Assembly: GCF_900114325.1 (NCBI RefSeq)
Contig: NZ_FOSR01000003.1
Coordinates: 62,001-126,000 of the forward strand
Length of the DNA stretch: 64,000 bases
DNA from: Rhodanobacter glycinis
GTDB lineage: Bacteria > Pseudomonadota > Gammaproteobacteria > Xanthomonadales > Rhodanobacteraceae
Reading direction: 5' to 3'
Shown here: one piece after another, positions 15,152 to 35,427 of the stretch
Position numbering within the stretch: the stretch's first letter is position 1
Layout of the letters: every line of letters begins with the position of its first letter
Made by a program: the position numbers and the translations under genes
Notes under the pieces: generated by a model
Databases searched by the model: none
What the model was told of the DNA's origin: nothing
The model's input: the letters and a program-made list of their open reading frames with translations, nothing else

Positions 15152-15208
15152 CGGTCGGTCGTCCGTGAGAGATGGAAACCACATGATGCATCATGCGACT
15201 TCTCCATG

Positions 15209-16021
15209 TCAGGGTGACTGTGGTGCCGGTGCGGCGCAGGTGTTGGCCGTCGGTTCGATCTGCTGCGCGAGGTTGTAGAGAACGCGCAGATCCTGTGCGT
15301 CCAGCGTGTCGCCGTCCATGCCGCGGAAATGGTGGTGGAAGGAGCGCACGGCGGCGGGGCGGTCGTCCAGGGGATAGCCAACCACGGCCAGCGCCATCCA
15401 TGGATCGAAACCTGCGGGTGGATCGCATAGCGGGCCTTTTGGCCAGCGGCCGAAACCGGCATCGGCGAGTTGTTGCCACGGGAATAGCGGGCCGGGATCG
15501 TCCTTGCGTCCGGGGGCCAGGTCTTCGTGGCCGATGATTTGCGTGGGCGGGATGTGCAGCCGCGTAGTGAGGTCGGCAAGCAGGCGCAGCAGGCTGGCGA
15601 TCTGCGGTTGGGCGAATGGCGTGTGGCCATCGTTGTCCAGCTCGATGCCGGTCGAAGCGGAGTTGAGGTCGGTGATGGTGCCCCAGCGCCCCGGCCCTGC
15701 GTGCCAGGCACGCAGCTGATCGGCCACCAGTTGGTAGATGTGGCCGTCGCTGCCGATCAGGTAATGCGCACTGACCGGGCCGCCGCTGTTGCGGGTGCGC
15801 AAGGTATCGAGTGCTTCCTGCGCCGTATGCTCGTTGGTGAAGTGCAACACGATCAGCACCGGCCGGCGAATGTCGTGGTTGGGCGAAGGCACCCAGGTGG
15901 CCAGCGGGTTGCGCGGCGGCGCGTGGGCGCAGGCAGCGAGGAGTGCGAGTGCGAGCAGCAGGGTGGCTGTGCGCAGGAGGCGTGGGATCGGGAGTGTCTG
16001 GCGCATGGCGGTGGGTTTCAT
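15209..16021 (-). CDS. N-acetylmuramoyl-L-alanine amidase, AmiD-like lipoprotein
   Basis: 270 residues. A lipoprotein signal with lipobox LLAAC near residue 31 precedes an Amidase_2 (PGRP-like) zinc domain. Zinc-ligand and catalytic positions are visible in VLHFT, RAWHAG, STGIELDNDG and IGHEDLAPGRKDDPG. AmiD-type enzymes sit on the outer membrane facing the periplasm and cut the bond between N-acetylmuramic acid and L-Ala, releasing free stem peptides. This is the first step expected of the murein-peptide cluster that follows upstream. A palindromic repeat lies just before the gene. Confidence 0.9.
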   Translation of the reverse strand: MKPTAMRQTLPIPRLLRTATLLLALALLAACAHAPPRNPLATWVPSPNHDIRRPVLIVLHFTNEHTAQEALDTLRTRNSGGPVSAHYLIGSDGHIYQLVADQLRAWHAGPGRWGTITDLNSASTGIELDNDGHTPFAQPQIASLLRLLADLTTRLHIPPTQIIGHEDLAPGRKDDPGPLFPWQQLADAGFGRWPKGPLCDPPAGFDPWMALAVVGYPLDDRPAAVRSFHHHFRGMDGDTLDAQDLRVLYNLAQQIEPTANTCAAPAPQSP

Positions 16022-16035
16022 GAGTGGTTTTTGCT

Positions 16036-16179
16036 CGTCATTCCGGCGCAGGCCGGAATCCAGTCAAACGACTCGTGCGAAGCACGCAAAACCGGTTTCG
16101 TGTGCTTCGCACGCATGCTTCACTGGATGACCAGACCTTCGTCTGTTGAAAAGCTCCTCCAGCTTGCGCTGGAATGACG
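16036..16179. repeat. Compound palindromic repeat, family C (copy 1)
   Basis: Two hairpins, cgtcattccggc...gccggaatcc at 16036-16064 and ctccagcttgcgctgga followed by atgacgg ending near 16179, flank a segment with its own inverted repeat (gtgcgaagcacg / gtgcttcgcac). Related elements are at 19803-19890 and 34205-34232. The pattern is the common cgtcattcc...ggaatgacg intergenic repeat. Confidence 0.7.
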
Positions 16180-16208
16180 GTAAGGAAAGGTTGGGGTAAT
16201 GACGGTAG

Positions 16209-17261
16209 TCAATGTAAGAACGGCTCGGCGATGGCTAGCACGGTGCGGTAAGGTTCCGGCGTGTTGCGGTTGCTGAGCAGGACCACCGTGAGGTGCTGCT
16301 TCGGCCAGCGCACGATCACGTTGCGGAAGCCGATGCTTTCGCCGGAGTGCCACAGCGTGTCGCCGGTGATGCGCCAGCCGAAACCGTAACTGGCTTCGTA
16401 CGGTTCGCCAGTGACTTTGACGTGCGGGCTGAAGGCCAGCTTGCGCGAGGCATCGCTGAGCAGGCGGTCGTCGTACAGCGCGGCATCCCATTTGGCCAGG
16501 TCGTCGATGGACGAATAGATGCCGCCGTCGCCGCGGGTGGCGCTGGTCAGGTCCTGGTCGGTGCGTTGCCATTGGCCATCGGTTTCGCTGTAGCCGTAGG
16601 CGCGATGTGGCACCGTCTTGTCGTCGTGCACGTAGAGCAGGGTGTGGTCCATGTGCAGTGGCGTGAAGATGCGCTGCTTGAGGAAGTCCTGCAGCGGCAG
16701 GCCGGAGGCTTTTTCCACCACCAGACCGAGCAGCACGTAGCCGGTGTTGCTGTAGCGGTAGGTGGAGCCGGGCGCGAAGTAGGTGTGCGTGGTGGCGGAG
16801 ACCATGCGCAGCACGTCCTGGTCGTTCAACTGCTTCGTGGCGCCGGTTGGAATCAGGTCCTCATAGTCGAGCAGGCCACCGGTATGGCAGAGCAGCTCGC
16901 GCAGCGTCACCTTGCCGGCGAAGGTCGGCAGCGACGGCAGCCAGTGGCGGATCGAGTCGTCGAGTTTCAGCTTGCCGTCCTGCGACAGCAGCAGGATCGC
17001 CGCGGCGGTGAACTGCTTGGTGACGGAAGCGAGGCGATAGTCGGTGGCCGACGTGGCGGCGACGTGGTGTTCCAGGTCGGCCATGCCGTAGCCGCGGTCG
17101 ATCAGCGGCTTGCCATCCTTGATCACCAGCAGCGAGGCACCGGGAACGTCGCCGGTGTATTTCTGCATCAGGCGGTTGGCGTTCTGGATGGTGTCGGCGG
17201 TGGTGGCGTTTGTGGTTCCGACGACGAACAGCGACAGGGCGAAGAGGGTGACAAGACGCAT
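16209..17261 (-). CDS. Secreted serine hydrolase, beta-lactamase/DD-peptidase family (S12)
   Basis: 350 residues with an N-terminal signal peptide (MRLVTLFALSLFVVG). Class C beta-lactamase-type motifs are present: SxxK in LASVTKQF (nucleophile Ser), YSN in STYRYSNTGY, and an HSG motif near the C-terminus in LWHSGESIGF. Members hydrolyse D-amino-acid peptide or ester bonds; whether this one is a DD-carboxypeptidase, D-aminopeptidase or esterase cannot be read from sequence. It lies downstream of the VanX-like gene on the same strand, with a palindromic repeat between, next to other murein peptidases. Confidence 0.85.
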   Translation of the reverse strand: MRLVTLFALSLFVVGTTNATTADTIQNANRLMQKYTGDVPGASLLVIKDGKPLIDRGYGMADLEHHVAATSATDYRLASVTKQFTAAAILLLSQDGKLKLDDSIRHWLPSLPTFAGKVTLRELLCHTGGLLDYEDLIPTGATKQLNDQDVLRMVSATTHTYFAPGSTYRYSNTGYVLLGLVVEKASGLPLQDFLKQRIFTPLHMDHTLLYVHDDKTVPHRAYGYSETDGQWQRTDQDLTSATRGDGGIYSSIDDLAKWDAALYDDRLLSDASRKLAFSPHVKVTGEPYEASYGFGWRITGDTLWHSGESIGFRNVIVRWPKQHLTVVLLSNRNTPEPYRTVLAIAEPFLH

Positions 17262-17289
17262 GGCGGACCTCCGGAAGCCGGGGCTTGGG

Positions 17290-17399
17290 CCCCCTCCCTT
17301 CGGGAGAGGGGTTGGTGAGAGGGTTCGGGCGGAGCGGAGCGTTGCGCTCCGGCCGTACCCTCACCCGCCTGCCGGCACCCTCTCCCGAGGGGAGAGGGA
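17290..17399. repeat. Palindromic repeat, family B (copy 1)
   Basis: Arms cccctcccttcgggagaggg and ccctctcccgaggggagagg with inner arms gagggttcgggcgg and gtaccctcacccgcc. Shares most of its sequence, including cctcacccgcctgccggcac, with the element at 31964-32072. Confidence 0.75.
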
Positions 17400-17433
17400 T
17401 TGTTTCGTGCAGGGCGTGGCGAGAGTGGGGCAT

Positions 17434-18237
17434 TCATTGCACTGGCACGTCGTACAGCGTGTGCGGCGTGGGCTCGGGTGCCAGGGTGTAGTGCCACCAC
17501 TCCATGCTGTAGTTCTTGAACCCTTCGTGCTCCATGGCGGCGCGCAGGCGGTGGCGGTTGGCGAGCTGGGTGGCACTGATGCCGGGGGCGTCGGTGTGGG
17601 CGCGTACGCCGAACCAGTCGAAGCCGGTGCCCATGTCCAGTGGCGCGCAATGCGTGCCATCGGCGGCGCAGCGCTCCATGGTCAGGTCGACGGTGGCGCC
17701 ACGGCTGTGGCCGGACACGGGAGCGATGTAGACGCCGAGCAATTTCGACTTGTCCAGGTTCGGGTAGTGCTGCGGTTTGGTGCGCTGGTCGGAGAGGTCG
17801 TGCGCCCAGTGCACGAAGTCCGCCACCGCGCGGGCGGGGCGGTAGCAATCCCACAGCTTCAGCCGATAGTGCTGCGCTCGCAGATCGTGTTCGACCCGGG
17901 CCAGTGCGTCGGCAGCCGGGCGCAGCAGCAGGCATTTCGGGGCAAGGTAGCCGTGCACCGGCCGACCGACGAAGTTGTCGCGGCCGGCGTACTTGATGTC
18001 TTCGGCGATGTCGGGCACCAGGCTGCGGATGTCGACCAGGTCGGCCTGCGCCGCGGTCTTCGCGGGCGAGAGCTGCGGCGCCTGTTCGGCGGCCCGCACG
18101 ACTTGCAGGCAGGCCGCGAGGACGATGAATGACGCGATGCCGTAGGAGCGCACCCTGTGCGCGAATGCTCTTGGCTTCGACCAAGCGCCAGAGCCTTCGC
18201 GCACAGGGTGCGCTCCTACGGGAAGTCGGTGTTTCAT
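17434..18237 (-). CDS. VanX/DdpX-like D-Ala-D-Ala dipeptidase (M15D)
   Basis: 267 residues. The zinc site is complete: H177 and D184 in SGHSRGATVDL, H249 in EWWHY, with E246 as the catalytic base. Known members cleave free D-Ala-D-Ala; here it would work in the periplasm or outer membrane on murein-derived dipeptide. A lipobox-like VLAAC at residues 39-43 suggests a lipoprotein. The ATG at 18237 overlaps the stop of the upstream serine hydrolase (ATGA). Oddly, residues about 6-33 are encoded by a REP palindrome (18140-18221), which pushes the membrane signal 30 residues inward; a GTG inside the repeat could be the real start. Confidence 0.85.
   Translation of the reverse strand: MKHRLPVGAHPVREGSGAWSKPRAFAHRVRSYGIASFIVLAACLQVVRAAEQAPQLSPAKTAAQADLVDIRSLVPDIAEDIKYAGRDNFVGRPVHGYLAPKCLLLRPAADALARVEHDLRAQHYRLKLWDCYRPARAVADFVHWAHDLSDQRTKPQHYPNLDKSKLLGVYIAPVSGHSRGATVDLTMERCAADGTHCAPLDMGTGFDWFGVRAHTDAPGISATQLANRHRLRAAMEHEGFKNYSMEWWHYTLAPEPTPHTLYDVPVQ
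18140..18221. repeat. REP-like palindrome, family A, copy 2, inside a coding sequence
   Basis: Perfect 26-bp inverted arms (18140-18165 and 18196-18221) with the same gtaggagcgcaccctgtg core as the element at 5046-5140. It lies within the first 33 codons of the VanX-like gene and keeps its reading frame open. Confidence 0.9.
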
Positions 18238-19802
18238 GGGCAGTCCCCCGTGCGGGTGAAGTGCAGGTCTTCGTAGTCGGAGCTGAAATCGCCCAGCGGA
18301 TCGACCTTGGCCATGCTCAGCGTAGCGGGATGGCCGTCTTGCGCCGGATGGAAATCCAGCCATGCGTCGGGCGCCACGCTGCGGTCGGTCCAGCGCACCA
18401 GGTCGCGGTTGCCCAGTTGCATGAGGTCGCCGTTGAGCCGGGGCGATTTGGCGACGGCGAAGTGCACGCGGCCATGGTTCGGACACAGCAGCATCTCGCC
18501 GAGCCAGGGATCGCGGTAGCGACCGGTCCATGCCGCCAGGGCGACTGGCGCGACCGGCCTGGCGGCGGAGGTGTCGGGAGCGGCGGCACGGGTTGTTGCC
18601 TGTTTGTCCGCGCGCGCCAGCGCATCGGCGTACCAGGCGACGCCGCGCGCGTCGCCCGGTGCGGTGAAGTGCTTGAGCAGCACTTCGCCCAGCACGGTGC
18701 GTGCGCTTTCGGCCTCGCCGTTGATCAGGAACACGAAGCCGCTTTGCCGGTCGGGCAACAGCATCAGTTCGGAATACATGCCGGCCAGCGTGCCGGTGTG
18801 CCATACCGTCCAGTGGCCATCGACATCGGCCATGCGCCAGCCGAAACCGTAGGCCATGATGTGGGAGTGATCCCATTCGCGACGTTGCGTGGAGACCGGA
18901 ATCAGCATGTGCGGCGCCTGCAGGATGCGGCGTTGCTTCGCCGACAGCCACTGCAACTGCGCCGGCGTGGGAGCCAGCCAGTTGCGTGCCCAGCTGAGCA
19001 TGTCGTCGAGGTCGCAGCGGATGCCACCGGCCGGCGCGGAGGTGATCGCCGGGATCACCGGGCCATCCTCGCGCATCGGGATGTTGCGCGTGCCATCGCG
19101 GTAGTGCGGCTCGGCCACGTCGCCGACCGCGTCGCGGTTCCACCGGCCGACCTGGCAACGGTCGAGGCCGAGCGGCTGGAACACCTCGCGATGCATCAGT
19201 GTTTCGTAGGGCGTGCCACCCGCGGCGGCGGCCACTTCGCCGGCCACCACGTAAAGCAGGTTGTCGTACTGGTACTTCGAGCGGAAGCTGTAGCCAGGCT
19301 TGATGTAGCGCAGCCCATGGATGATGTCGGCGCGGGTGAAGGCATTCGGCTGGGGCCACAGCATCAGGTCGCCGCCGCCCTCGGGCAGGCCGCTGGAGTG
19401 GGTGAGCAGGTCGGCCACGCGCATGTTCTTCGTGACCCACGGGTCGTGCATGCGGAAGTCCGGCAGGTACTTCGTCACCGGGTCGTTCCAGTGCAGCTTG
19501 CCCTGGTCGACCAGCCGGCCGAGCAAGGCCGTGGTCATCGCCTTGCTGTTGGACGCGATCTTGAACAGCGTGCGCGGGGTGATCTTGTGGCCCGAGCCGG
19601 CGATGGTCTCGCCGCGCGTGCCGATGTAGACCACCTGGCCGTGCTCGATCACGCCCAGCGCGATGCCGGGCAGGTGGTAGCGCGCCACCACGGCGTCGAG
19701 GATGGGGTCGTAGGTGGCGGTGCGGTCTTGCTGAGCGGCCTGTGCTGGAAGGACCAGCCCGAGCAAGAGGCAGGGAAACGCCAAGGCACGGAACAGCCTC
19801 AC
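18234..19802 (-). CDS. Secreted serine hydrolase, beta-lactamase/PBP-like, long form
   Basis: 522 residues. Signal peptide (VRLFRALAFPCLLLGLVLPAQA), then an S12-type domain with SNSK (FKIASNSKAM; SxxK), YDN (SKYQYDNLLYV) and HTG (VWHTGTLAG), then a C-terminal ~120-residue domain of the kind found on D-aminopeptidase/esterase-like relatives. The GTG at 19802 sits at the edge of a family C palindrome; frames extending further upstream would read through that repeat, so I reject them. The stop overlaps the VanX-like start. Likely role: trimming D-amino acids or D-Ala-D-Ala-containing peptides in the periplasm. Confidence 0.85.
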   Translation of the reverse strand: MRLFRALAFPCLLLGLVLPAQAAQQDRTATYDPILDAVVARYHLPGIALGVIEHGQVVYIGTRGETIAGSGHKITPRTLFKIASNSKAMTTALLGRLVDQGKLHWNDPVTKYLPDFRMHDPWVTKNMRVADLLTHSSGLPEGGGDLMLWPQPNAFTRADIIHGLRYIKPGYSFRSKYQYDNLLYVVAGEVAAAAGGTPYETLMHREVFQPLGLDRCQVGRWNRDAVGDVAEPHYRDGTRNIPMREDGPVIPAITSAPAGGIRCDLDDMLSWARNWLAPTPAQLQWLSAKQRRILQAPHMLIPVSTQRREWDHSHIMAYGFGWRMADVDGHWTVWHTGTLAGMYSELMLLPDRQSGFVFLINGEAESARTVLGEVLLKHFTAPGDARGVAWYADALARADKQATTRAAAPDTSAARPVAPVALAAWTGRYRDPWLGEMLLCPNHGRVHFAVAKSPRLNGDLMQLGNRDLVRWTDRSVAPDAWLDFHPAQDGHPATLSMAKVDPLGDFSSDYEDLHFTRTGDCP

Positions 19803-19890
19803 CGTCACCCCAGCGAAAGCTGGGGCCCAGTGCCTTGTGGTTTCGATCGGGCGACGAAGGCGCTGGATCCCAGCTTTCGCTGGGATGACG
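19803..19890. repeat. Palindromic repeat, family C (copy 2)
   Basis: Arms gtcaccccagcgaaagctgg and cccagctttcgctgggatg flank a 35-base centre; located between the M19 dipeptidase and the serine hydrolase. Confidence 0.75.
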
Positions 19891-19938
19891 AGCATGTTGG
19901 TCTCCAGCAGGTGATTGATGTCGGGCGTGCCCAGGCGC

Positions 19939-21180
19939 TCAGCGTTGTGCATCGCGTTCCACCTCGCCCCACACGCGCAGCAGGTTGCCGCCCCAGATTT
20001 TCGCGATGTCGGCATCGCTGAAGCCGGCGTGGCGCAGCGCCATCGTGACGTTGCGGGTTTCGCTGGCGTCCTTCCATCCGGTGATGCCGCCGCCGCCATC
20101 GAAGTCCGAGGCGATGCCCACGTGGTCGATCCCGGCCACCTGCACCATGTGCCGGATCTGCTTCACGTAGTCGTCCAGGGTGGGCAACGGGTATGTCTTC
20201 TCGATCTCGGCCATGCCTCGGGCCATCGCTGGCAGGTAGTCGTCCTTGTCGCTGTCGTATTCGGCGTCGCCATGGGCCTTGGCCACGGCGTCCTGCAGCT
20301 TCTTTTCGGCGGCCTCGCGACCGGGGTCGTGCTTGAGGAATTCCTTGTATGCCACCGCCTGGATCACGCCACCCTTGGCGGCGATCGCGCGCAGCAGGTC
20401 GTCGGGCAGGTTGCGCGGGTGGTCGAGCACGGCGCGCGCACCGGAGTGCGAGGCGATGATCGGTGCCTTCGAATAGGCCAGCGCGTCGCGTACGCAGCGA
20501 TCGGAGGCGTGCGAGATATCGACCATCATGCCGAGCTGGTTGGCGCGTGCCACCACCTGGCGACCGAACGCGCTCATGCCCTTGTCGCCCGCGCTGTTCA
20601 TGGCCGGCTCGCCGTACTTCGTGTCCGGCAACGAACTGGTGCACAGATCGTTGTCGCCCACGTGGACCAGTCCCACGTAGCGCGCGCCCCGGTCGTAGGC
20701 GGCATCCAGGCGATGGATGTCGTGGCCGAGCGAATAGCTGTTCTCGATGCCGATCATGGCCGAGAGCAGGCCGGCGCGGCGGTTGGCCATGGCCTGCGCG
20801 GGCGTGGTGGCGAGGCGGATGCGGTCGGGATAGCGCATCAGCATGCGTTCGATGCCTTCGTACTTTTTCTCGGCCTGGCGCACGGCCTTGGCGTAGCCCG
20901 CGGGCGTGAGCGGCCCCTGTGGCACCCAGATCACGAAGAACGCGGCATTGAGCCCGCCGCGTTCCATCTTGCCCAGGTCGACCAGCAATCGGGTGTCCTT
21001 GCCGACATCGAAGCGTGGCTCGCGCATGTAGGTGAACGGGATGTCGACGTGGGTGTCGATGGTGATCGGTGGATCGGCGAGCCGGGCCGTTTGCGTGGCG
21101 CCGGCGGCGGGCTGGCCAAAGGCGAGCAGGCCCGATGCCAGCGCGCCAAGCATGAGCGTGTGCGGTGAAAAATGTTTCAT
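19939..21180 (-). CDS. Membrane-type (renal) dipeptidase, peptidase family M19, secreted
   Basis: 413 residues. Signal peptide (MKHFSPHTLMLGALASGLLA). Zinc-site signatures are present: IDTHVDIP, IGIENSYSLG with bridging Glu, the MVDISHASD and IIASHSGARAV histidines, and DHVGIASDFDGGG. Family members hydrolyse dipeptides, often with a D-residue at the second position, so L-Ala-D-Glu or L-Ala-L-Glu from murein are natural candidates here. ATG 21180 has GGGAG upstream and overlaps the lysA stop (ATGA). Part of the minus-strand run lysA - M19 - serine hydrolase - VanX. Confidence 0.92.
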   Translation of the reverse strand: MKHFSPHTLMLGALASGLLAFGQPAAGATQTARLADPPITIDTHVDIPFTYMREPRFDVGKDTRLLVDLGKMERGGLNAAFFVIWVPQGPLTPAGYAKAVRQAEKKYEGIERMLMRYPDRIRLATTPAQAMANRRAGLLSAMIGIENSYSLGHDIHRLDAAYDRGARYVGLVHVGDNDLCTSSLPDTKYGEPAMNSAGDKGMSAFGRQVVARANQLGMMVDISHASDRCVRDALAYSKAPIIASHSGARAVLDHPRNLPDDLLRAIAAKGGVIQAVAYKEFLKHDPGREAAEKKLQDAVAKAHGDAEYDSDKDDYLPAMARGMAEIEKTYPLPTLDDYVKQIRHMVQVAGIDHVGIASDFDGGGGITGWKDASETRNVTMALRHAGFSDADIAKIWGGNLLRVWGEVERDAQR

Positions 21181-22466
21181 GCCGTCTCCCAATGCCGGGC
21201 CGATGGTTCGCCGGCGGTCATTTCCTCGAAATGCTGGCGCCTGCGAACCACGGCGTAGCGGCCGCGATCGAGCAGCGCCTCGGCGGCCAGGGGCCGCGAG
21301 TTGTAGGTGGAGGCCATCGAGGCACCATAGGCGCCGGTGGTGCGGATCATCAACAGGTCGCCGGCGGCACAGGCGGGCAGGCGGCGGTCGCGGGCGAAGG
21401 TGTCGCCGGTTTCGCAGACCGGCCCGACCACGTCGTAGACGGTTTCCGGTCGGGCCTCGTTCGCGACCGGCACGATATCGTGCCAGGCGTCGTACAGGCT
21501 CGGGCGCGCCAGGTCGTTCATGGCCGCGTCCAGCACCAGGAAGTCGCGCGCTTCGCCGTGCTTGATGCGTATCACGCGGGTCAGCAATACGCCGGCTTCG
21601 GCCACCAGATAGCGGCCAGGTTCGAGCAGCAGATCCCCGTCGAAGCCGGCCAGCGCCTCGCGGATGGTCGCCGCATAGTCTTCCGCCGCGATCGGCGTGT
21701 CGTCCTCGCGATAGCGCACGCCGAGGCCGCCGCCGACATCGATGCTGGCAATGGGATGACCGGCCTCGCGCAGCTCGTGCCAGAACGCGGCCACGCGCTG
21801 CAGGGCGAGACGGAACGGTTCCAGCGAAAGGATCTGCGAGCCGATGTGCACGTGCAGGCCGTCCAGTCGCACGTGCCGCAGTTGTTCGCGCGCGGCGAAC
21901 CAGTGACGTGCCTCGTCGATGCTTACGCCGAACTTGTTCTCCGACTTGCCAGTGGCGATCTTGGCGTGGGTGAGCGCGTCCACGTCCGGGTTGATGCGCA
22001 CCGCGGCGCGTGCGGTGGTGTGTTGCGTCGAGGCCAGTCGTTCGATGGCATGCAGTTCGTCCAGCGATTCCACGTTGAAGCGCCGGATGCCCACGTCGAG
22101 TGCGCCGGCGATCTCGTCCTCGCTCTTGCCCACGCCGGAGAACACGATGCGCTCGGGCGGGATGCCCGCCTGCAATGCGCGGCGCAGTTCGCCGGCGGAG
22201 ACGATGTCCGCACCCAGTCCCGCCGCGGCCATCAGTTCGAGGATGGCGCGATTGCCGTTGGCCTTGACGGCGTAGCAGATCGTCGCGTCGAGGCCATGCA
22301 GCGCCTGCTGCAGCGCGTTGATGCGTTGGCGGATCGCGCTGGCGGAGTAGGCGTGGAGCGGCGTGCCGAGCCGGCCGGCGAGCGCGGCGAGATCGACGCC
22401 GTCGAACTGCGCCGAGGACCTGGCGTCCATGCCGGTGGCAGTCTGCTGGATGGACAGCGTGCTCAT
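21177..22466 (-). CDS. lysA: Diaminopimelate decarboxylase
   Basis: 429 residues. PLP enzyme of the alanine-racemase-like fold that converts meso-diaminopimelate to L-lysine. Visible: PLP lysine K68 in ICYAVKAN, HIGSQ, DVGGGLG, EPGRYLV, the VCETGD cysteine motif that contributes to the active site of the partner subunit, and GAYGASMASTYNSRP. No signal peptide, so cytoplasmic. It is placed in an operon with murein peptidases rather than with other lysine genes, suggesting DAP catabolism; whether it is the only lysA of the genome cannot be seen here. Confidence 0.92.
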   Translation of the reverse strand: MSTLSIQQTATGMDARSSAQFDGVDLAALAGRLGTPLHAYSASAIRQRINALQQALHGLDATICYAVKANGNRAILELMAAAGLGADIVSAGELRRALQAGIPPERIVFSGVGKSEDEIAGALDVGIRRFNVESLDELHAIERLASTQHTTARAAVRINPDVDALTHAKIATGKSENKFGVSIDEARHWFAAREQLRHVRLDGLHVHIGSQILSLEPFRLALQRVAAFWHELREAGHPIASIDVGGGLGVRYREDDTPIAAEDYAATIREALAGFDGDLLLEPGRYLVAEAGVLLTRVIRIKHGEARDFLVLDAAMNDLARPSLYDAWHDIVPVANEARPETVYDVVGPVCETGDTFARDRRLPACAAGDLLMIRTTGAYGASMASTYNSRPLAAEALLDRGRYAVVRRRQHFEEMTAGEPSARHWETA

Positions 22467-22484
22467 GGGCTTGCTCGTGGAATC

Positions 22485-22518
22485 AAAAAAAGGCGACCCG
22501 CAAGCTGTGCGGGTCGCC
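22485..22518 (-). terminator. Rho-independent terminator between TonB receptor and lysA
   Basis: On the minus strand an 11-bp perfect stem (ggcgacccgca / tgcgggtcgcc, 5-base loop) is followed by seven T residues. It lies 15 bases after the receptor stop and 18 bases before the lysA start, so lysA must be reached by read-through or has its own promoter. Confidence 0.92.
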
Positions 22519-22532
22519 ACGCGGGGAGGCCG

Positions 22533-25568: not shown

Positions 25569-25623
25569 ATTCCCCATCTCCCCATCGACGCCGTCGATGC
25601 CATATATGAAAAGCGGTGGTGGT

Positions 25624-28477: not shown

Positions 28478-28487
28478 GAGTGAAGCG

Positions 28488-29894
28488 ATGAAACGTTCGA
28501 TGTTCGCGGCTTTGGCGTTGGCCTTCGTGTTCGCCCATGCACCGTTGCAGGCGCGCGATGCAGCCGGCACGTTGCCGATACCGCCGAGCGGCGTGCTCGG
28601 CGTGGGCGAGGCGCAGCTCACCCCGACGTTCTGGATCGGCCTGCAGGCCACGCCTGACCAGCCCATCCTCACCCGCGCGCAGATCGATGCGCAGAACGCG
28701 AAACTGCTGAAGCTCGATCCGTCGATGCACGACCTCGCCGCATTGCCCGCGTCGGTGTCGCGGGCGCAGGTGACCGGCTGGATCGAGCACCGTTCGAAAC
28801 GACCCACGCACACGCTTTTCGACGTGCATGGCCAGCCGGTGCCCAAGGCCACGCTGGATAGCCTGATGAGCGAGCTGGCACTGGGCGCGATCCCTGCGCA
28901 ACAGCCGGTGCGCTATGGCCTGGTGGTGCATCGTGCCGCGTTGCGCAGCTTTCCGACCATGCTGCGTGTGTTCAGTCGGCAGGGCGATACCGACATCGAC
29001 CGTTTCCAGGAAAGCGCCGAATTTCCCGGTACGCCGGTGGCCATCGTGCACACCAGCGGGGATGGCCGGTGGCTGTTCGTGATCAGCCCGCGCTACGCGG
29101 CATGGATGGAAAAGAAGTACGTGGCCGAAGCACCGAAGAACGTGGTGCTCGGTTACGCCGCGAAAACGCCGTACCGGGTGGTCACCGGCGCCAGTGTGCG
29201 CACGGTATTCACCCCCGAGCAGCCGGCGGTGTCGCAATTGCAGCTGGACATGGCCACGCGCGTGCCGCTGCTGACCACGCTGCCGCCCGACCAGCCGGTG
29301 AACGGCCAGACCCCGTACACCTCGTACACGCTGCAATTGCCGATGCGCAAGGACGACGGCAGTCTCGCGCTGGTGCCCGCGTTGTTGCAGAAGAACACCG
29401 ACACCGCCGGCGACTACCTGCCGCTGACGCCACGCAACCTGATCACCCAGGCGTTCAAGTTCCTTGGCGAGCGCTACGGTTGGGGCCATGCCTACGACGG
29501 TCGCGACTGCTCGGGCTTCGTCTCCGACGTCTATCGCAGCATGGGCGTGCAGATGCCGCGCAACACCAGTGACCAGGGCGTGAGCCCGGCGCTGGCGCAT
29601 CGCCTGTTCACTGCCGCCGACAGCCACGAGGTGCGGTTGAAGGCGGCGATGCAGCTCCGGCTCGGCGACCTGGTCTACATCCCCGGCCACGTGATGATGG
29701 TGCTGGGCCAGTGGCAGGGCCAGCCGTGGGTGATCCACGACGTGCTGGGCATGAGCTACCTCAAGCCCGACGGTTCCACTGCGCACGTCAAGCTCAACGC
29801 GGTGTCGGTCACGCCGTTGTTGCCGATGCTGTACGGCAAGGACGGCACCACCTTCATCGACCACATGACCAGCATCGTGCGCATGCGTCGCTGA
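28488..29894 (+). CDS. SH3-domain NlpC/P60 cell-wall endopeptidase (YkfC-like)
   Basis: 468 residues with a signal peptide (MKRSMFAALALAFVFAHAPLQA). N-terminal part carries bacterial SH3-type domains (NlpC/P60 N-terminal and SH3b1 types, about 40-270). The C-terminal NlpC/P60 domain has nucleophile C341 in DGRDCSGFVSDVY and the catalytic His near residue 400 in IPGHVMMVLG. YkfC-type enzymes cut the gamma-D-Glu-diaminopimelate bond of free murein peptides carrying an N-terminal L-Ala, releasing L-Ala-D-Glu. The next gene encodes the epimerase that acts on exactly this product. RBS GGAG lies just upstream. Confidence 0.9.
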   Translation: MKRSMFAALALAFVFAHAPLQARDAAGTLPIPPSGVLGVGEAQLTPTFWIGLQATPDQPILTRAQIDAQNAKLLKLDPSMHDLAALPASVSRAQVTGWIEHRSKRPTHTLFDVHGQPVPKATLDSLMSELALGAIPAQQPVRYGLVVHRAALRSFPTMLRVFSRQGDTDIDRFQESAEFPGTPVAIVHTSGDGRWLFVISPRYAAWMEKKYVAEAPKNVVLGYAAKTPYRVVTGASVRTVFTPEQPAVSQLQLDMATRVPLLTTLPPDQPVNGQTPYTSYTLQLPMRKDDGSLALVPALLQKNTDTAGDYLPLTPRNLITQAFKFLGERYGWGHAYDGRDCSGFVSDVYRSMGVQMPRNTSDQGVSPALAHRLFTAADSHEVRLKAAMQLRLGDLVYIPGHVMMVLGQWQGQPWVIHDVLGMSYLKPDGSTAHVKLNAVSVTPLLPMLYGKDGTTFIDHMTSIVRMRR

Positions 29895-29949
29895 TCGCCG
29901 GCGACAGACGGTCGACGAATTTCCATCGAACTCACGGACACGGCTCTCC

Positions 29950-31050
29950 ATGAAAATTACCGACATTCAATTCGGCATGCTGCGGGTTCCGCTGAAGACG
30001 CCGTTCAAGACGGCGCTGCGGACCGTCAACCAGGTCGAGGACATCGTGGTCATGGTGCATACCGACACCGGCCACATCGGTTATGGCGAAGCCCCGGCCA
30101 CGGCGGTGATCACGGGCGATACCCATGGCTCCATCATCGACGCGATCCGCCATTACATTTCGCCACGGCTGATCGGCCAGGACGTGGCCGACCTCAATCG
30201 GCTTGCCGGCCTGGTGCAGTCCTCGATGGAGAAAAACACCAGCGCCAAGGCGGCCGTGGAAATCGCGCTGTACGACTTGTGGGGCCAGTTGTACAAGGCG
30301 CCGCTGTACAAGTTGCTCGGTGGCGGCGATCCGGTGATCACCACCGACATCACCATCAGCGTGGACTACATCGACAAGATGGTGGCCGACTCCATCAGTG
30401 CCGTGGAACGCGGTTTCGAATCGCTGAAGATCAAGGTGGGCAAGGACATCGGCGTGGACATCGAGCGGGTCAAGGCGATCTATGCCGCGGTGGAAGGCCG
30501 CGCGTTGCTGCGGCTGGACGCCAACCAGGGCTGGACCGCGAAGCAGGCGGTATATGCGCTGCAGACGCTGGAGGATGCCGGCATCAAGCTGGAGCTGGTC
30601 GAGCAGCCGGTGAAGGCGCGTGACCTGGCCGGCATGCGCTACGTCACCGAGCGCGTGCACACGCCGGTAATGGCCGACGAAAGCGTGTTCGGGCCGATGG
30701 AGGTGATCGAGTTGATCCGGCTGCGCGCGGCCGACATCATCAACATCAAGCTGATGAAGACCGGGGGCATTTCCAATGCCATCCGGATTGCCGACATCGC
30801 GGCCATGCATGGCATCGAATGCATGATCGGCTGCATGCTGGAAACCAGCATCAGCGTGGCCGCCGCGGTGCACGTGGCGGTGGCCAAGGCCGACGTGATC
30901 ACCAAGGTCGACCTGGACGGCCCCTCGCTGTGCCAGTTCAATCCGGTGGACGGTGGGGTAATCTTCAACGAATCCGAGATCTCGGTGACGGATGCACCGG
31001 GTCTGGGCATCCGCGAGATCCGTGGGCTGGAAACCGATATCGCCGCCTGA
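29950..31050 (+). CDS. L-Ala-D/L-Glu epimerase, enolase superfamily (YkfB/YcjG-like)
   Basis: 366 residues. It converts L-Ala-D-Glu from murein into L-Ala-L-Glu so that ordinary dipeptidases can use it. The catalytic lysine pair is K162 (in LKIKVGKD) and K267 (INIKLMKTGG); metal ligands are D190 (DANQGW), E218 (EQPV) and D243 (ADES). The substrate-amine binding D-x-D motif typical of the L-Ala-D/L-Glu subgroup is present as D321-L-D323, which distinguishes it from other dipeptide epimerases and from muconate enzymes. No signal peptide. It follows the NlpC/P60 gene by 55 bases, with the regulator gene 18 bases downstream. Confidence 0.95.
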   Translation: MKITDIQFGMLRVPLKTPFKTALRTVNQVEDIVVMVHTDTGHIGYGEAPATAVITGDTHGSIIDAIRHYISPRLIGQDVADLNRLAGLVQSSMEKNTSAKAAVEIALYDLWGQLYKAPLYKLLGGGDPVITTDITISVDYIDKMVADSISAVERGFESLKIKVGKDIGVDIERVKAIYAAVEGRALLRLDANQGWTAKQAVYALQTLEDAGIKLELVEQPVKARDLAGMRYVTERVHTPVMADESVFGPMEVIELIRLRAADIINIKLMKTGGISNAIRIADIAAMHGIECMIGCMLETSISVAAAVHVAVAKADVITKVDLDGPSLCQFNPVDGGVIFNESEISVTDAPGLGIREIRGLETDIAA

Positions 31051-31068
31051 GCAGGAACCCGATCCGAC

Positions 31069-31926
31069 ATGTCGCCCCTCGTCAAGATCCGCTCCGAACG
31101 CGACCAGATGTCGGCGGTGGAACGTCGCATCGCGGATTTCATCCTGGACAACGCCCAGTTGTTGCGCGACTACTCTTCGCAGCAATTGGCCAACGCGCTG
31201 GGCATCAGCCAGTCCAGCGTGGTCAAGTTCACCCAGAAGCTCGGTTTCAAGGGCTATCCCGACCTGAAGTATTCGGTAGGCGAGGCGATTGCCCGCGCCG
31301 ACAATGGCGGCGTTGAACAAGCCACGGCGCATGCCGGCGGCGAAACGGACGATTCGTCGGCCGGTGGCCTGTGGCGGCGCAAGTCCGAGGCGGAGGAGGC
31401 CACCCGGCTGATCAACACGTCGCAGACGCTCGCCGCCGTGGCCGGGGCGATCGGTACGGCCGGACGCAGCGGCAAGGTGTTCATCATCGGCCTGGGCGAC
31501 GACGACATCTACGCGCGCGGCTTCGCGCTGAAACTGTCGTTGCTGGGCATCCTCACCGTGCACAACTTCGATACCGCGCGGATGACCGCCAACGTTTCCG
31601 CGGCCAGTGCCGGCGACGTGCTGCTGGTGTTTTCCGAACACGGCAACCACCCGGCGCTGTGCAAGATCAGCCGTTATTTCCGCGAGCGCCGTGGCCAGGT
31701 GATCAGCGTGACCCGGCATACCGCCAACCCGCTGCGCACGCTGGCGGACATTGCCTTGCTGGTGTCCGCGCACGACGAGCAGCCGTACATCCAGCCGCTG
31801 CTCTATCAATCCGCGTTGCAGCACCTGCTGGATGGCATCTTCGTGCGTCTGTGCGAAAGCGACGATTCGCGCCATGCGCAACTGGTGGCGAACCTGGATC
31901 GCATCCAGCAGATGCTGGAGCCGTGA
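31069..31926 (+). CDS. RpiR/MurR-family transcription regulator with atypical SIS domain
   Basis: 285 residues. N-terminal HTH_6 domain (about 1-77; SSQQLANALGISQSSVVKFTQKLGFKGYPDLK) and C-terminal SIS domain (about 130-265). The phosphosugar pocket of typical members is changed: the first loop reads GLGDDDIYARGFA instead of a Gly-x-Ser type loop, and the second reads VLLVFSEHGNHP instead of an S-x-S-G-x-T type loop. The protein therefore probably senses something other than a sugar phosphate, plausibly a peptide or amino acid of the pathway. It lies in the plus-strand arm and is the obvious candidate regulator of the whole cluster. Confidence 0.9.
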   Translation: MSPLVKIRSERDQMSAVERRIADFILDNAQLLRDYSSQQLANALGISQSSVVKFTQKLGFKGYPDLKYSVGEAIARADNGGVEQATAHAGGETDDSSAGGLWRRKSEAEEATRLINTSQTLAAVAGAIGTAGRSGKVFIIGLGDDDIYARGFALKLSLLGILTVHNFDTARMTANVSAASAGDVLLVFSEHGNHPALCKISRYFRERRGQVISVTRHTANPLRTLADIALLVSAHDEQPYIQPLLYQSALQHLLDGIFVRLCESDDSRHAQLVANLDRIQQMLEP

Positions 31927-31963
31927 TGGTCGTCCGGACGTCCATCCGTGCTGCGATTTTTAA

Positions 31964-32072
31964 CCCCCCTCCCGTCGGGAGAGGGGTTGGGGTGAGGGTG
32001 CGGTGTCGCCGTGACACCCGTCTCCGCCCGAACCCTCACCCGCCTGCCGGCACCCTCTTCCGAAGGGAGAGG
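31964..32072. repeat. Palindromic repeat, family B (copy 2)
   Basis: Outer arms cccctcccgtcgggagaggg and accctcttccgaagggagagg, with cctcacccgcctgccggcac inside, matching the copy at 17290-17399. It separates the regulator gene from the YkuD-like gene. Confidence 0.8.
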
Positions 32073-32100
32073 AATTCCTTCGTTGGAGGATTCCACATCC

Positions 32101-32868
32101 ATGCGTAACCGTCTCGTCACACTGCTGATCGCCGGGCTCGCGCTGTCCGGCAACGTCGTCGCCGGCGATGCCCCCGCCGCCTGGTCCGATGCTCGCCAGA
32201 TGGTGCTGGTCACCGTCCCCGGCTGGAATGCGATGCAGGGCACGCTGCGAACTTACGAGCGTAGTGATGGCGGTGCGTGGCACGAAGCAGGCAAGGCCCG
32301 GCCGGTGGTGATCGGCCACAGCGGCGCGGCCTGGGGCATCGGTCTCAGTCCGGCGCAGCACGACGGCCCACAGAAGCGCGAAGGCGACGGCCGCAGCCCG
32401 GCCGGCGTGTTCCGCATTGGCACCACGTTCGGTTACGCCGCCCATGCGGACACGACGATGCCCTACCTCGCGCTCACCGCCACCGACTACTGCATGGACG
32501 TCAGCGGCTCGCCGTTGTACAACCACATCGCTGACACCGCCAAGGTAGGCGCGGCGGCGTTGAAGGGCTCCAGCGAACCGATGCGGCGCGATCTGCATTT
32601 CCAGGGCGATCAGCGCTACCGGCTCGGCTTCGTGATCGAGCACAACCCGAACGGTGTGCCGCAGGGTGGCAGTTGCATCTTCGGCCATCTGTGGAAAACG
32701 CCGGATACCGGCACCACCGGCTGCACCGCGATGAACCCCGCCACCATGCGCCGTTTGCTGGCGTGGCTGAAGCCGCAGGCGCATCCGATTTTCGTGCTGT
32801 TGCCGCAGAACGAATACGCACGCCTGCGTCATGGCTGGCAGTTGCCGTCCACGCAGGGTGGCCGATGA
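32101..32868 (+). CDS. Secreted L,D-transpeptidase-fold (YkuD) protein
   Basis: 255 residues. Signal peptide (MRNRLVTLLIAGLALSGNVVAG). YkuD-type catalytic residues are visible: H196 in CIFGHLW and C208 in TTGCTAM, with an upstream GRSPAGVFRIG segment typical of the fold. Members form or break bonds at the diaminopimelate carboxyl of murein stem peptides (L,D-transpeptidases, and some act as L,D-carboxypeptidases). In this cluster it could trim tetrapeptides. GGAGG lies eleven bases before ATG 32101. The stop overlaps the symporter start by 4 bases. Confidence 0.85.
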   Translation: MRNRLVTLLIAGLALSGNVVAGDAPAAWSDARQMVLVTVPGWNAMQGTLRTYERSDGGAWHEAGKARPVVIGHSGAAWGIGLSPAQHDGPQKREGDGRSPAGVFRIGTTFGYAAHADTTMPYLALTATDYCMDVSGSPLYNHIADTAKVGAAALKGSSEPMRRDLHFQGDQRYRLGFVIEHNPNGVPQGGSCIFGHLWKTPDTGTTGCTAMNPATMRRLLAWLKPQAHPIFVLLPQNEYARLRHGWQLPSTQGGR

Positions 32869-34139
32869 GCGCCACCACGCGCGTACTGTCGGGTCTCGCG
32901 GCCGGCGCACTGGTGGGTCTGGCGCTTGCGGCGTGGGCGCCGGCATGGGCGGCGCACGCCGCGGATGTCGCGCAGCCGATCGGCCACCTGTGGTTGAACG
33001 CCTTGCAGATGACGGTGGTGCCGCTGGTGCTGGCGCTGGTGGTGGTGGGCGTGAATACCGCCAGCGACGCGGCGGCTTCCGGACGCATCGCGCGGCGCAC
33101 GCTGGTCACCATCATCGTGCTGCTGGCCGGTGGTGCGGCAGTGGCGGCACTGGTCGCGCCGCCGCTGTTTGCATTGTTTCCGCACAACCCCGAATTGGGT
33201 GCGGTGCTGGCTGGCCACGCGGCGCAGGCGCCGTCCGGGGCCGTGCCCGGTTGGTCCCACTGGTTCGAGGACATCGTGCCGAGCAATGCCCTGATGGCCG
33301 CGGCGCAGAGCGCGATGTTGCCGCTGGTGGTGTTCGCGTTGTTTCTGGGGTTTGCACTGACCCGGTTGCAGGCCTCGCGGCGTGCCTTGCTGGTGGAATT
33401 CTTCCAGGCAGTGGCGGACGCGATGATCGTGATCGTGCGCTGGGTGCTGTGGCTGGCGCCGCTGGGCGTGTTCGCGCTGATCCTGGCGGTGTGCGCGCGT
33501 GCCGGCGTGGGCATGGTGCGCGCGTTGGGCGTGTACGTGTTGACCGAGATCCTGCTCTACCTGCTGGTGACCGCGTTGATGCTGCCGGTGGCGGTGCTGT
33601 GGGGCGGCGAGCGCTTGCGCCGATTCGTCGTCGCGCTGGCGCCGGCGCAGGCGGTGGCGGCCAGCACGCAATCGTCGCTGGCGTCGTTGCCGGCGATGCT
33701 GGAAAGCGCGGAAGAGCGGCTCGGTTATCCACCGCAGGTGAATGCGCTGGTGTTGCCGATGGCGGTGTCGCTGTGTCGCCTCACCAGCCCGGTGCAATAC
33801 GTGGCCTCGGCCTGCTTCATCGCCTGGGCCAGCGGCATCGACCTCAGCGCGGCGCAACTGATTGCCGGCGCGGCGCTGGCCGTGGTGATCAGCCTGGGCT
33901 CGGTCGGCCTGCCCGGGCAGGTCACCTTCATGGCCACCAACCTGCCGGTGGCGCAAGCCATGGGCGTGCCGCTGGGGCCGCTGGGCCTGATGCTTGCCGT
34001 CGACACGCTGCCGGATGTCTTCGCCACGCTGGGCAACGTCACCGCCGACCTCACCGTGAACAGCGTGGTGGTGCGGCAGTCGCGCCGCGATGCGGCCGGG
34101 CCGCCTCCCGGCATGCAGCAAGAGGCCGGAACGGAGTGA
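32865..34139 (+). CDS. Dicarboxylate/amino acid:cation symporter (DAACS family)
   Basis: 424 residues with about eight transmembrane helices plus re-entrant loops. The serine-rich hairpin is STQSSLASLPAMLES and the substrate/cation region shows LPMAVSLCRLTSPVQYVA and a later SLGSVGLPGQVTFM; both are recognisable for the GltP/DctA family but diverge from the standard glutamate-binding consensus. It would carry an amino acid or dicarboxylate across the inner membrane with Na+ or H+. In context, D/L-Glu, Ala or DAP are candidate cargoes. ATG 32865 overlaps the YkuD gene stop. Confidence 0.88.
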   Translation: MSATTRVLSGLAAGALVGLALAAWAPAWAAHAADVAQPIGHLWLNALQMTVVPLVLALVVVGVNTASDAAASGRIARRTLVTIIVLLAGGAAVAALVAPPLFALFPHNPELGAVLAGHAAQAPSGAVPGWSHWFEDIVPSNALMAAAQSAMLPLVVFALFLGFALTRLQASRRALLVEFFQAVADAMIVIVRWVLWLAPLGVFALILAVCARAGVGMVRALGVYVLTEILLYLLVTALMLPVAVLWGGERLRRFVVALAPAQAVAASTQSSLASLPAMLESAEERLGYPPQVNALVLPMAVSLCRLTSPVQYVASACFIAWASGIDLSAAQLIAGAALAVVISLGSVGLPGQVTFMATNLPVAQAMGVPLGPLGLMLAVDTLPDVFATLGNVTADLTVNSVVVRQSRRDAAGPPPGMQQEAGTE

Positions 34140-34204
34140 CCCGGCCTCGACCCGAACCGCAGGATTTACCTTGAACTGCTCCCGCAGGAAAACTCGAATA
34201 ACTC

Positions 34205-34232
34205 CGTCATTCCAGCGAAAGCTGGAATGACG
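34205..34232. repeat. Palindromic repeat, family C (copy 3)
   Basis: A perfect hairpin with 12-bp arms cgtcattccagc / gctggaatgacg and a gaaa tetraloop, 65 bases after the symporter stop. It may also act as a 3' hairpin. Confidence 0.85.
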
Positions 34233-34290
34233 CATCAATGGAATTATTCGGGTTTCCCTGCAGGAGGGAACGTCTGGACGGAATGCCGAT

Positions 34291-35427
34291 ATGCATGAGA
34301 ACACATTCGACGCCATCGTCATCGGCGCCGGCATGGCCGGTGCCTCGGTGGCCTGGTTTCTGGCGCCGCACGCGCGCGTGCTGGTGCTGGAGCGCGAGGC
34401 GTGGCCGGGCGTGCATTCCACCGGCCGCTCGGCGGCCTTGTTCAGCGAAACCTATGGCTCTGCCCAGGTGCGTGCGCTGACGCGTGCCACGCGTCCGTTT
34501 CTGGAACGCCCGCCGAGCGGCTTCGCCGCGCATCCCATCCTCACGCCGCGCGGCACCGTGGTGATCGGCTCGGCGGAGCAGGCCGACCAGGTGCGGGCGA
34601 TGCACGATGCCAACGCGCCGTTTGTCAGCGACCTGCACCTGCTGGGTACCGACGCCTTGCTCGGCATGGTGCCGGTGCTGCGACCGGAAGCGGCATGCCT
34701 CGGCCTGTACGAGCCGGGCTCTGCCGACATCGACGTCAACGAGCTGCACCAGGGTTTCCTGCGCGGACTGCGCGAGCGCGGCGGGCAACTGCTGGCGAAT
34801 GCCGACATCCGCACGATCGAGCGCGCGCAAGGGCACTGGGAGATCGATTGCGGTGAGTCGCGATTCCGCGCGCCGCTGCTGCTCGACGCGGCGGGGGCGT
34901 GGGCCGATGACGTGGCGCGCCTGGCCGGCGTCGCTCCGCTGGGACTGCAGCCGAAGCGACGCTCGGCCTTTCTGTTCGAACCGCCGGAAGGCATGGCCAC
35001 GGCAAGCTGGCCGTTCGTGATGGCGGCCGACGAAAGCTGCTACTTCAAGCCCGATGCCGGCCTGTTGCTCGGCTCGCCCGCCAATGCCGATCCGGTGCCG
35101 CCACACGATGTGCAGCCGGAAGAGTTCGACATCGCGCTGGGCATTCATCGCATCGAGGAAATCACCACGATGACGATCCGCCGGCCGACCCGAAGCTGGG
35201 CCGGCCTGCGCTCCTTCGTGCCGGACGGCAACCTGGTGGGCGGTTTCGCGCCGGACGCGGAAGGCTTCTTCTGGGTCGCGGCGCAAGGTGGCTACGGCAT
35301 CCAGACCAGTGCGGCGATGGCCGAGGCCTGCGCGCAACTGGTGCTGGGTCGTGCGTTGTCGGCGCATCTGCAGGACGCGGGCATTTCCGCCGCGCTGCTG
35401 GCGCCGCGCCAGGGCGCGACGCCATGA
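34291..35427 (+). CDS. FAD-dependent D-amino-acid oxidase/dehydrogenase-like enzyme
   Basis: 378 residues of the DAO (DadA/glycine-oxidase/ThiO) fold. The N-terminal dinucleotide-binding motif is VIGAGMAGASVAWFL, followed by the STGRSAALFSETYG loop near FAD, and the C-terminal FAD loop is FVPDGNLVGGFAP...FWVAAQGGYGIQTS. No signal peptide, so cytoplasmic or peripheral. The family oxidises D-amino acids or other small amines; D-Ala or D-Glu released by the neighbouring peptidases are natural substrates, but this is contextual. Ends the plus-strand arm, facing the convergent alpha-galactosidase gene 13 bases away. Confidence 0.85.
   Translation: MHENTFDAIVIGAGMAGASVAWFLAPHARVLVLEREAWPGVHSTGRSAALFSETYGSAQVRALTRATRPFLERPPSGFAAHPILTPRGTVVIGSAEQADQVRAMHDANAPFVSDLHLLGTDALLGMVPVLRPEAACLGLYEPGSADIDVNELHQGFLRGLRERGGQLLANADIRTIERAQGHWEIDCGESRFRAPLLLDAAGAWADDVARLAGVAPLGLQPKRRSAFLFEPPEGMATASWPFVMAADESCYFKPDAGLLLGSPANADPVPPHDVQPEEFDIALGIHRIEEITTMTIRRPTRSWAGLRSFVPDGNLVGGFAPDAEGFFWVAAQGGYGIQTSAAMAEACAQLVLGRALSAHLQDAGISAALLAPRQGATP

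Follow-up and report, generated by a model that had tools for sequence, protein, structure and literature searches.

What might a bacterium do with a stretch of chromosome on which a dipeptide epimerase, a TonB-dependent receptor, a set of hydrolases of wall-related families and a second diaminopimelate decarboxylase are encoded side by side? The question is raised by a locus of Rhodanobacter glycinis (genome of 3.87 Mb in 29 contigs), which occupies positions 15209-35427 of a 64,000-nucleotide stretch of contig NZ_FOSR01000003.1, referred to here as the window. The locus is filled by 15 genes in two divergent arms that part at 27130-27322 (Table 1). An earlier description from the sequence alone (the original prediction) had proposed a two-armed cluster for the scavenging and catabolism of murein peptides. 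The 14 genes that it named lie where it had placed them, each with a Pfam match (that of the YkuD-fold protein falls just under the curated cut-off), and its divergent region is confirmed in the sequence, but it had overlooked the transglutaminase-like gene (tgc) that heads the left arm. The comparisons reported here indicate that the locus is real and conserved and that it most likely serves peptidoglycan peptides. We regard a peptidoglycan-peptide utilisation locus as its probable identity, with catabolism well supported and the scavenging of external material moderately so.

The product of the epimerase gene (AEE) has its best match in the L-Ala-D/L-Glu epimerase of Bacillus subtilis. Arg24, both lysines of the KxK motif, three metal ligands, the second catalytic lysine and both aspartates of the DxD motif are invariant in 136 epimerases, bar one row at Lys162, which together with Lys268 makes up the acid-base pair in the cited part of PMC5808125. 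The protein scores under the equivalog cut-offs of two NCBIfam models, NF041118 (252 bits, cut-off 500) and NF011708 (114 bits, cut-off 343), which by their names would represent the Thermotoga and E. coli branches of the enzyme. We take the remaining positions to serve as metal ligands, as the DxD contact of the L-Ala amine and, with Arg24, in the roles usually given to them. The closest structure and the kept positions agree with the predicted epimerase and mark it as YkfB-like, and these residues strongly support a formation of L-Ala-L-Glu in the cytoplasm. Among 12 relatives the epimerase protein is 80-95% identical, versus 51-91% for five other cluster proteins, and its differences at four-fold sites (0.23-0.47) are comparable to those of the five other genes (0.22-0.58). 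On this comparison the high identity is not put down to a recent spread of the gene, and purifying selection on the protein is taken as its main cause.

Relatives of the epimerase occur in 101 of 233 genomes of the family (E ≤1e-40), 121 of 299 genomes of the order, 6 of 369 of the class (four of them in the order, two at 35-36% identity) and 10 of 349 of the phylum (seven in the order and three at 50-65%), with E ≤1e-60 in the order, class and phylum searches; these samples overlap and include the window's own genome. Among the named loci, which are the best 80 of 420, an epimerase 95% identical to that of the window is found in genomes that include Fulvimonas, Dyella, Frateuria and Rhodanobacter species. 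The comparison drew on 60 of the 101 family genomes that carry the epimerase and on 29 further regions from the order, class and phylum searches, picked for spread and not at random. Two series of loci (L033-L092 and L093-L172) come partly from the same genomes, and 138 distinct loci remained once those with the same epimerase sequence had been merged. Presence was counted only in loci that reach far enough. As some loci stop short, the figures for amiD, sxk1, vanX, sxk2 and M19, which lie over 9 kb upstream of the epimerase gene, are minimum values.

Counted in this way, the locus retains nlpC in 134 of 137 cases, ykuD in 123/136, rpiR in 111/137, tgc in 104/133, the receptor gene in 100/131, sdf in 89/132, sxk2 in at least 83/129, vanX in at least 79/129 and M19 in at least 68/129. 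The genes for the AmiD-like amidase (at least 22/129), the first SxxK hydrolase (at least 52/129) and the FAD oxidoreductase (dao, 48/128) were found at the locus less often. In many genera of the order the gene order and strand are largely maintained: 12 of 14 genes nearly always lie on the expected strand and side (tgc in 104/105, nlpC in 132/134), sxk1 (46/52) and amiD (18/23) less regularly. The downstream neighbours, a melibiase gene (1/96) and a GH2 gene (1/77), seldom accompany the cluster; on this one-sided control chance clustering is rejected, and the predicted co-conservation is upheld far beyond the genus. Across the 233 family genomes, TGc and epimerase occur together in 85, singly in 16 and 17, and neither is present in 115 (Fisher 1.6e-29, with kinship ignored). 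Outside the order, Steroidobacter gossypii (Steroidobacterales) carries sxk1, sxk2, the receptor, tgc, the DUF819 gene, nlpC, AEE and rpiR in the same layout, together with the first half of the control motif described below (locus L171).

Reduced clusters are found in four genera (L078-L092; g17, g6, g15 and g5). They contain nlpC, AEE, ykuD and mostly vanX, with DUF819, M19, DAACS or DAO genes variably present, and they are without RpiR, TGc and receptor except for a 31% receptor match in L079. Five of them that lie beside trpE (L085, L087, L088, L089 and L092) encode another epimerase (57-68% identity), a hint that a replacement may have taken place at a single site of the chromosome. Three more distant epimerase loci (L191, L194 and L204) have an Amidase_2-like gene upstream and a different arrangement.

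The cluster LysA, invariant at its catalytic positions across its set, clearly exceeds the curated cut-off, in agreement with the diaminopimelate (DAP) decarboxylase that had been predicted, and it is the second copy in the genome. The other match over the cut-off (309.3 bits) lies in an 858-codon frame that runs in from the edge of the stretch retrieved and ends at a TGA; its N-terminal MKFGGTSV is an aspartokinase motif, so that it may encode a bifunctional aspartokinase-DAP decarboxylase. A third match to the model, at 91.9 bits, is under the cut-off. AmpG and Mpl are encoded elsewhere in the genome, both over their cut-offs, so that ordinary recycling seems to be covered; together with the second lysA, this favours catabolism over plain recycling. 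Glutamate racemase gave no match in the window genome in a search that was positive in 10 of 14 control genomes. It is likewise absent from Xanthomonas oryzae, where MurL is used instead according to the part of PMC5808125 cited, and wall synthesis in the window genome may, by analogy, follow a MurL-type route. With no racemase found, the cell may have no way to recover D-Glu as L-Glu other than at the level of the dipeptide. The M19 dipeptidase is closest to structure 2RAG (216.8 bits) and keeps its metal-ligand positions in 50/50 sequences. Its assignment to the family (PF01244) stands, but its N-terminus is signal-like in a crude test; the enzyme looks periplasmic and would be a poor candidate for the hydrolysis of L-Ala-L-Glu in the cytoplasm, for which a peptidase would have to be encoded elsewhere.

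Most hydrolases of the cluster have signal-like N-termini by the same crude test, and their catalytic residues are well kept. The SxxK, YxN and HxG motifs are invariant in 40/40 sequences of sxk1 and the corresponding motifs in 68/68 of sxk2; the zinc-ligand positions of the VanX-type enzyme are kept in 71/71 (NF033115, 191.6 bits, below the cut-off of 320); His196, Gly207 and Cys208 of the YkuD-fold protein are invariant in 125/125 despite its low Pfam score; and the Cys-His-Asp triad of TGc is invariant in 105/105. A sequence search of the PDB returned only spurious WD40 matches for YkuD, two weak matches for TGc and none for DUF819. In 17 of the 233 family genomes, among them those of L211-L216 (genera g2 and g24), TGc is present while the epimerase is not. 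In the two such loci that were annotated, L211 and L214, its gene lies beside an M61 peptidase gene and an amino-acid permease gene or a ykuD-DAACS pair, near a class IV aminotransferase gene, and the palindrome GAATGCGTGTATTC is present in L211-L214. The L211 aminotransferase reaches 246 bits with a D-amino-acid transaminase model (cut-off 277), and YkuD and DAACS accompany the epimerase-less TGc in L214-L216.

The SH3-NlpC/P60 enzyme had been assigned to gamma-D-Glu-DAP cleavage. Its family and catalytic residues agree with this, Cys341 and His401 being kept in 130/130 sequences and the second His in all bar one row, but it is not of the YkfC type. The protein matches 3M1U at 100 bits versus only 24 bits for YkfC (3H41). 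In YkfC the need for a free N-terminal L-Ala is tied to Asp256 in the cited part of PMC2954226; the residue aligned with it here is Asn359 (Asn in 123/130, Asp in 7/130). Both the substitution and the low YkfC score suggest an earlier point of action, perhaps with larger fragments as substrates.

Among 106 clusters with an epimerase at 80% identity or more, 98 retain the TonB-dependent receptor, which we take to be of the Oar type. DUF819 and the glutamate:sodium symporter family are both members of the CPA/AT superfamily (cited part of PMC8396727). In Neisseria meningitidis a DUF819 gene follows a gene for an M15-family peptidase; this adjacency would fit a role with murein peptides, although no transport is shown in the cited part of PMC12671195. 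The DAACS protein scores well under the cut-off of the GltP model (116 versus 638 bits), and in L185 an APC amino-acid permease takes its place. The FAD oxidoreductase, predicted to be a D-amino-acid oxidase (DAO), is indeed present, and it matches the D-arginine dehydrogenase 3NYC over residues 5-374, which identifies it by sequence as DauA-like. DauA prefers basic D-amino acids.

Both arms probably answer to one control region. The sequence GTCAATAA is found in all 105 intergenic regions that could be cut, versus one in shuffles (33 of the 138 loci gave no such region and were left out). A 106-row alignment that includes the window shows TGTGTAaCA, then GGTCAATAAtTTATgCT, then GAAT and taTtCc, through two proposed overlapping promoters, the TTGCAA of the right-arm promoter not being kept in the Lysobacter-type rows printed. 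Beyond the promoters, GAATTAAGTATTCC at 27249-27262 forms an imperfect palindrome. When seven loci without nlpC in range were dropped, the first motif half, GTCAATAAWTTAT, was present in 104 and the second in 88 of the 108 clusters that bear rpiR, and both in none of the 23 clusters without it; an exact copy of either half occurs only once in the genome. A sigma-70 scan of 15000-34999 returned one site, versus a shuffle mean of 2.3, and missed the conserved promoters.

The regulator encoded in the right arm has the HTH_6 plus SIS architecture that is common to MurR/RpiR proteins. In its solved relatives the first stretch reads SSSGST, SLSGST or SQSGRS and GxGxS retains its Ser, whereas the window protein has SEHGNH and GLGDDD, so that the SxSGxT and GxGxS motifs of the phosphosugar sensors are absent from it and their Ser/Thr residues largely replaced; we assume that these motifs bind sugar phosphates. 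Among 110 regulators, Glu190, His217 and Asp236 are invariant (Glu190 in 110/110), the first Ser is kept in 101/110 and His191 in 82/110, and Asp145, which aligns with the lost Ser, is found in more than 95% of 84 sequences. Since no amino-sugar enzyme is present among the cluster proteins scanned and the SIS motifs are altered, a peptide or DAP would be a reasonable idea for the ligand.

Taken together, the following route can be proposed. The receptor would bring murein fragments into the periplasm, where the amidase, the two SxxK hydrolases, the VanX-type enzyme, the YkuD-fold protein and TGc would, judging by their families, trim them, and where the SH3-NlpC/P60 enzyme, by its closest solved relatives, might cut gamma-D-Glu from DAP. 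DUF819 might then carry L-Ala-D-Glu into the cytoplasm, and DAACS or the permease exchanged for it the released amino acids. There the epimerase, with the strong support of its residues, would turn L-Ala-D-Glu into L-Ala-L-Glu, to be split by a peptidase from outside the cluster, and the extra LysA, supported by its curated family match, would convert DAP to lysine. The local RpiR protein would control both arms through one putative operator in the overlapping divergent promoters, for which the support is comparative.

Table 1. Features of the locus in window coordinates. Starts marked ~ are internal ATG codons chosen in this analysis.
Feature	Position	Strand	Evidence
AmiD/AmpD-like N-acetylmuramoyl-L-alanine amidase (Amidase_2)	15209-16021	-	PF01510 114.5 bits; lipobox LAAC
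SxxK serine hydrolase 1 (sxk1), D-aminopeptidase/AmpH-like	16209-17261	-	PF00144 242.8 bits
VanX-type D-Ala-D-Ala dipeptidase (M15)	17434-18237	-	PF01427 137.6 bits
SxxK serine hydrolase 2 (sxk2), DUF3471-like end	18234-~19895	-	PF00144 208.4 bits; DUF3471 26.9, under cut-off 29.3
M19 dipeptidase, signal-like N-terminus	19939-~21180	-	PF01244 315.2 bits
Diaminopimelate decarboxylase LysA, second copy	21177-~22466	-	TIGR01048 474.7 bits, cut-off 297.9
Intrinsic-terminator-like hairpin, receptor/lysA gap	22492-22518	-	11-pair stem + T7
TonB-dependent receptor	22533-~25568	-	OMP_b-brl_4 107.7, CarboxypepD_reg 48.9, Plug 31.7 bits
Transglutaminase-like enzyme (TGc), first left-arm gene	25624-27129	-	PF01841 58.9 bits
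Proposed left-arm promoter, TTGACC (27215-27220, reverse)-17 nt-TACACA (27192-27197, reverse)	27192-27220	-	sequence; conserved in 106-row alignment
Proposed right-arm promoter, TTGCAA-16 nt-TATGCT, overlapping left promoter	27204-27231	+	sequence; conservation
Control motif GTCAATAATTTAT (27216-27228) + GAATTAAGTATTCC (27249-27262), proposed RpiR operator	27216-27262	+	comparative
DUF819 transporter (CPA/AT superfamily), proposed L-Ala-D-Glu carrier	27323-28477	+	PF05684 224.7 bits; 10 transmembrane-like segments
SH3-NlpC/P60 enzyme	28488-29894	+	SH3_6 + NLPC_P60 matches
L-Ala-D/L-Glu epimerase, YkfB-like (AEE)	29950-31050	+	1JPM/1TKK 342.7 bits
RpiR/MurR-family regulator, altered SIS motifs	31069-31926	+	HTH_6 78.3, SIS 50.1 bits
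YkuD-fold L,D-peptidase/transpeptidase-like protein	~32101-32868	+	PF03734 20.8 bits, under cut-off 23.4
DAACS sodium:dicarboxylate symporter (sdf)	~32865-34139	+	PF00375 254.5 bits
DauA-type FAD D-amino-acid dehydrogenase (DAO)	34291-35427	+	3NYC 454.1 bits

Palindromes resembling repetitive extragenic palindromic (REP) elements lie in the leaders of vanX (18140-18221) and sxk2 (19803-19890) and upstream of sxk1 (17290-17408) and ykuD (31962-32083). If translation begins at the starts adopted in Table 1, the vanX and sxk2 palindromes are translated in frame beside the signal peptide; the start of sxk2, with its REP-like leader, is uncertain.

Several findings weigh against a dedicated locus for peptidoglycan peptides. 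Two genes of the proposed route are less constant than it would suggest, lysA being present at only 66/129 loci and the DUF819 gene at only 92/135, and LysA, M19, VanX, YkuD and DAACS were not found at the Steroidobacter locus. No other dipeptidase family, and no cytoplasmic dipeptidase, was found among the cluster proteins, and the NlpC/P60 enzyme, without Asp at the Asp256 position, falls outside the YkfC subfamily. The flank control covers the downstream side only, because the upstream flank is seldom inside the fetched stretch; the upstream neighbour trpE adjoins the cluster in the window's genus and in the five reduced clusters named above, so that the upstream side is less free than the downstream one. 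On the epimerase tree (128 rows) the presence of rpiR changes three times and that of the motif six times; the motif follows rpiR in 3/3 independent pairs (p 0.25), and with so few independent changes the match is not significant by itself. The terminator-like hairpin after the receptor splits the left arm before LysA. Such structures follow the receptor gene in 70 of 96 relatives, versus 13/103 after tgc, 5/90 after the DUF819 gene, 4/129 after nlpC, 36/135 after AEE, 16/109 after rpiR and 7/64 after sxk2. The left arm is thus not one simple transcript, and LysA and the genes beyond probably rely on read-through or on a promoter of their own; the predicted co-regulation of the two arms has comparative support, from the conserved control region common to both. 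Lastly, at the locus of five of the seven other epimerase-bearing genomes of the genus (G197, G200, G201, G202 and G207, the other two being G195 and G205) the receptor, M19 and DUF819 are all missing, and in L035 and L036 tgc directly adjoins nlpC. This weighs against calling the pathway TonB-fed, even though the receptor gene is present at 100/131 loci of the wider sample.

The same absence of the receptor from five of seven relatives that keep the epimerase and NlpC would be expected if the locus recovered stem peptides shed from the cell's own wall into the periplasm, with the receptor as a bystander or an importer of something else. The signal-like N-termini of most hydrolases fit such a role, and so do the reduced clusters, in which nlpC, AEE, ykuD and in most cases vanX are kept but, L079 aside, nothing matches the receptor. 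We consider it rather unlikely, since AmpG and Mpl provide the standard recycling route elsewhere in the genome, LysA diverts DAP from reuse and the receptor is so regularly kept beside close relatives of the epimerase. A locus for scavenging D-peptides or D-amino acids more widely, with murein as one substrate among others, is also unlikely in our judgement. It could account for the resemblance of the oxidoreductase to D-arginine dehydrogenase and for the occurrence of TGc without the epimerase, with YkuD and DAACS or beside an M61 peptidase gene and near that of a class IV aminotransferase, but the YkfB-type epimerase positions, LysA and the VanX-type enzyme fit murein specifically and the DauA gene is optional. 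That the enzymes act on whole peptidoglycan, in bacteriolysis or wall remodelling (a beta-lactam response or competition), seems to us very improbable. The closeness of NlpC to 3M1U, which we take to be a wall lysin, the prevalence of Asn at the YkfC Asp256 position, the beta-lactamase-fold hydrolases and the presumed lytic predation of Lysobacter would agree with it; it is hard to see, however, what the epimerase, LysA and two transporters would contribute to lysis, and the SxxK proteins reach 103 and 80 bits with curated class C beta-lactamase models whose cut-off is 415. The utilisation of peptidoglycan peptides is retained as the probable reading, and of the original interpretation the stem-peptide target is favoured by the enzyme set, whereas the views of NlpC, DAO and M19 have to be changed and the presence of the receptor, M19 and DUF819 varies within the genus.

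Parts of this chemistry are familiar. Bacillus ykfABCD likewise places a YkfB-type epimerase beside an NlpC/P60 enzyme for murein peptide catabolism but, as described in the cited part of PMC2954226, it is without the TonB receptor, DUF819, RpiR, LysA, VanX and TGc of the present locus. MpaA, YcjG and PepD of E. coli carry out the same steps of gamma-D-Glu-DAP cleavage, epimerisation and dipeptide hydrolysis, with the unrelated metallocarboxypeptidase MpaA in place of an NlpC/P60 enzyme with a signal-like N-terminus. The same source, in the part cited, reported ykfB-ykfC pairs in Listeria, Acidobacterium, Solibacter, Bacteroides and Gramella in 2010, as pairs and without description there of a shared operator or of the fuller gene set seen here. 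The GlcNAc clusters of Caulobacter similarly combine a receptor, an inner-membrane carrier, catabolic enzymes and a local regulator (cited part of PMC13046382). No paper on this cluster was found among the open-access literature matches listed; the nearest, in the part cited, is a table of genes common to bean-pathogenic Xanthomonas strains that includes a dipeptide epimerase (PMC6090828). The claim of novelty must accordingly be narrowed, since the chemistry and the ykfB-ykfC pairing were known but the combination of TonB receptor, DUF819, TGc and a private, altered RpiR protein is absent among the matches listed. That this might be the first TonB-fed peptidoglycan-peptide locus, whose own RpiR protein has exchanged its SIS motifs for conserved acidic and His residues and recognises a murein peptide or DAP in place of a sugar phosphate, is a tentative proposal about which we have more doubt than confidence.

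The carbohydrate utilisation loci of Xanthomonas that contain TonB-dependent receptors (CUT loci) and the polysaccharide utilisation loci of Bacteroides also unite a receptor, a carrier, catabolic enzymes and a local regulator. TonB-dependent utilisation loci of this kind target sugars, whereas the substrate proposed here would be a peptide with D-amino acids. Soil contains much peptidoglycan, a polymer rich in nitrogen, yet the uptake of external peptidoglycan peptides by Gram-negative bacteria is, to our knowledge, poorly known. A conserved locus with a regulator of its own would provide a testable genetic handle on the use of such peptides. It also suggests what DUF819 and a conserved transglutaminase-like enzyme might do, and it may point to a new class of ligand for the RpiR family.

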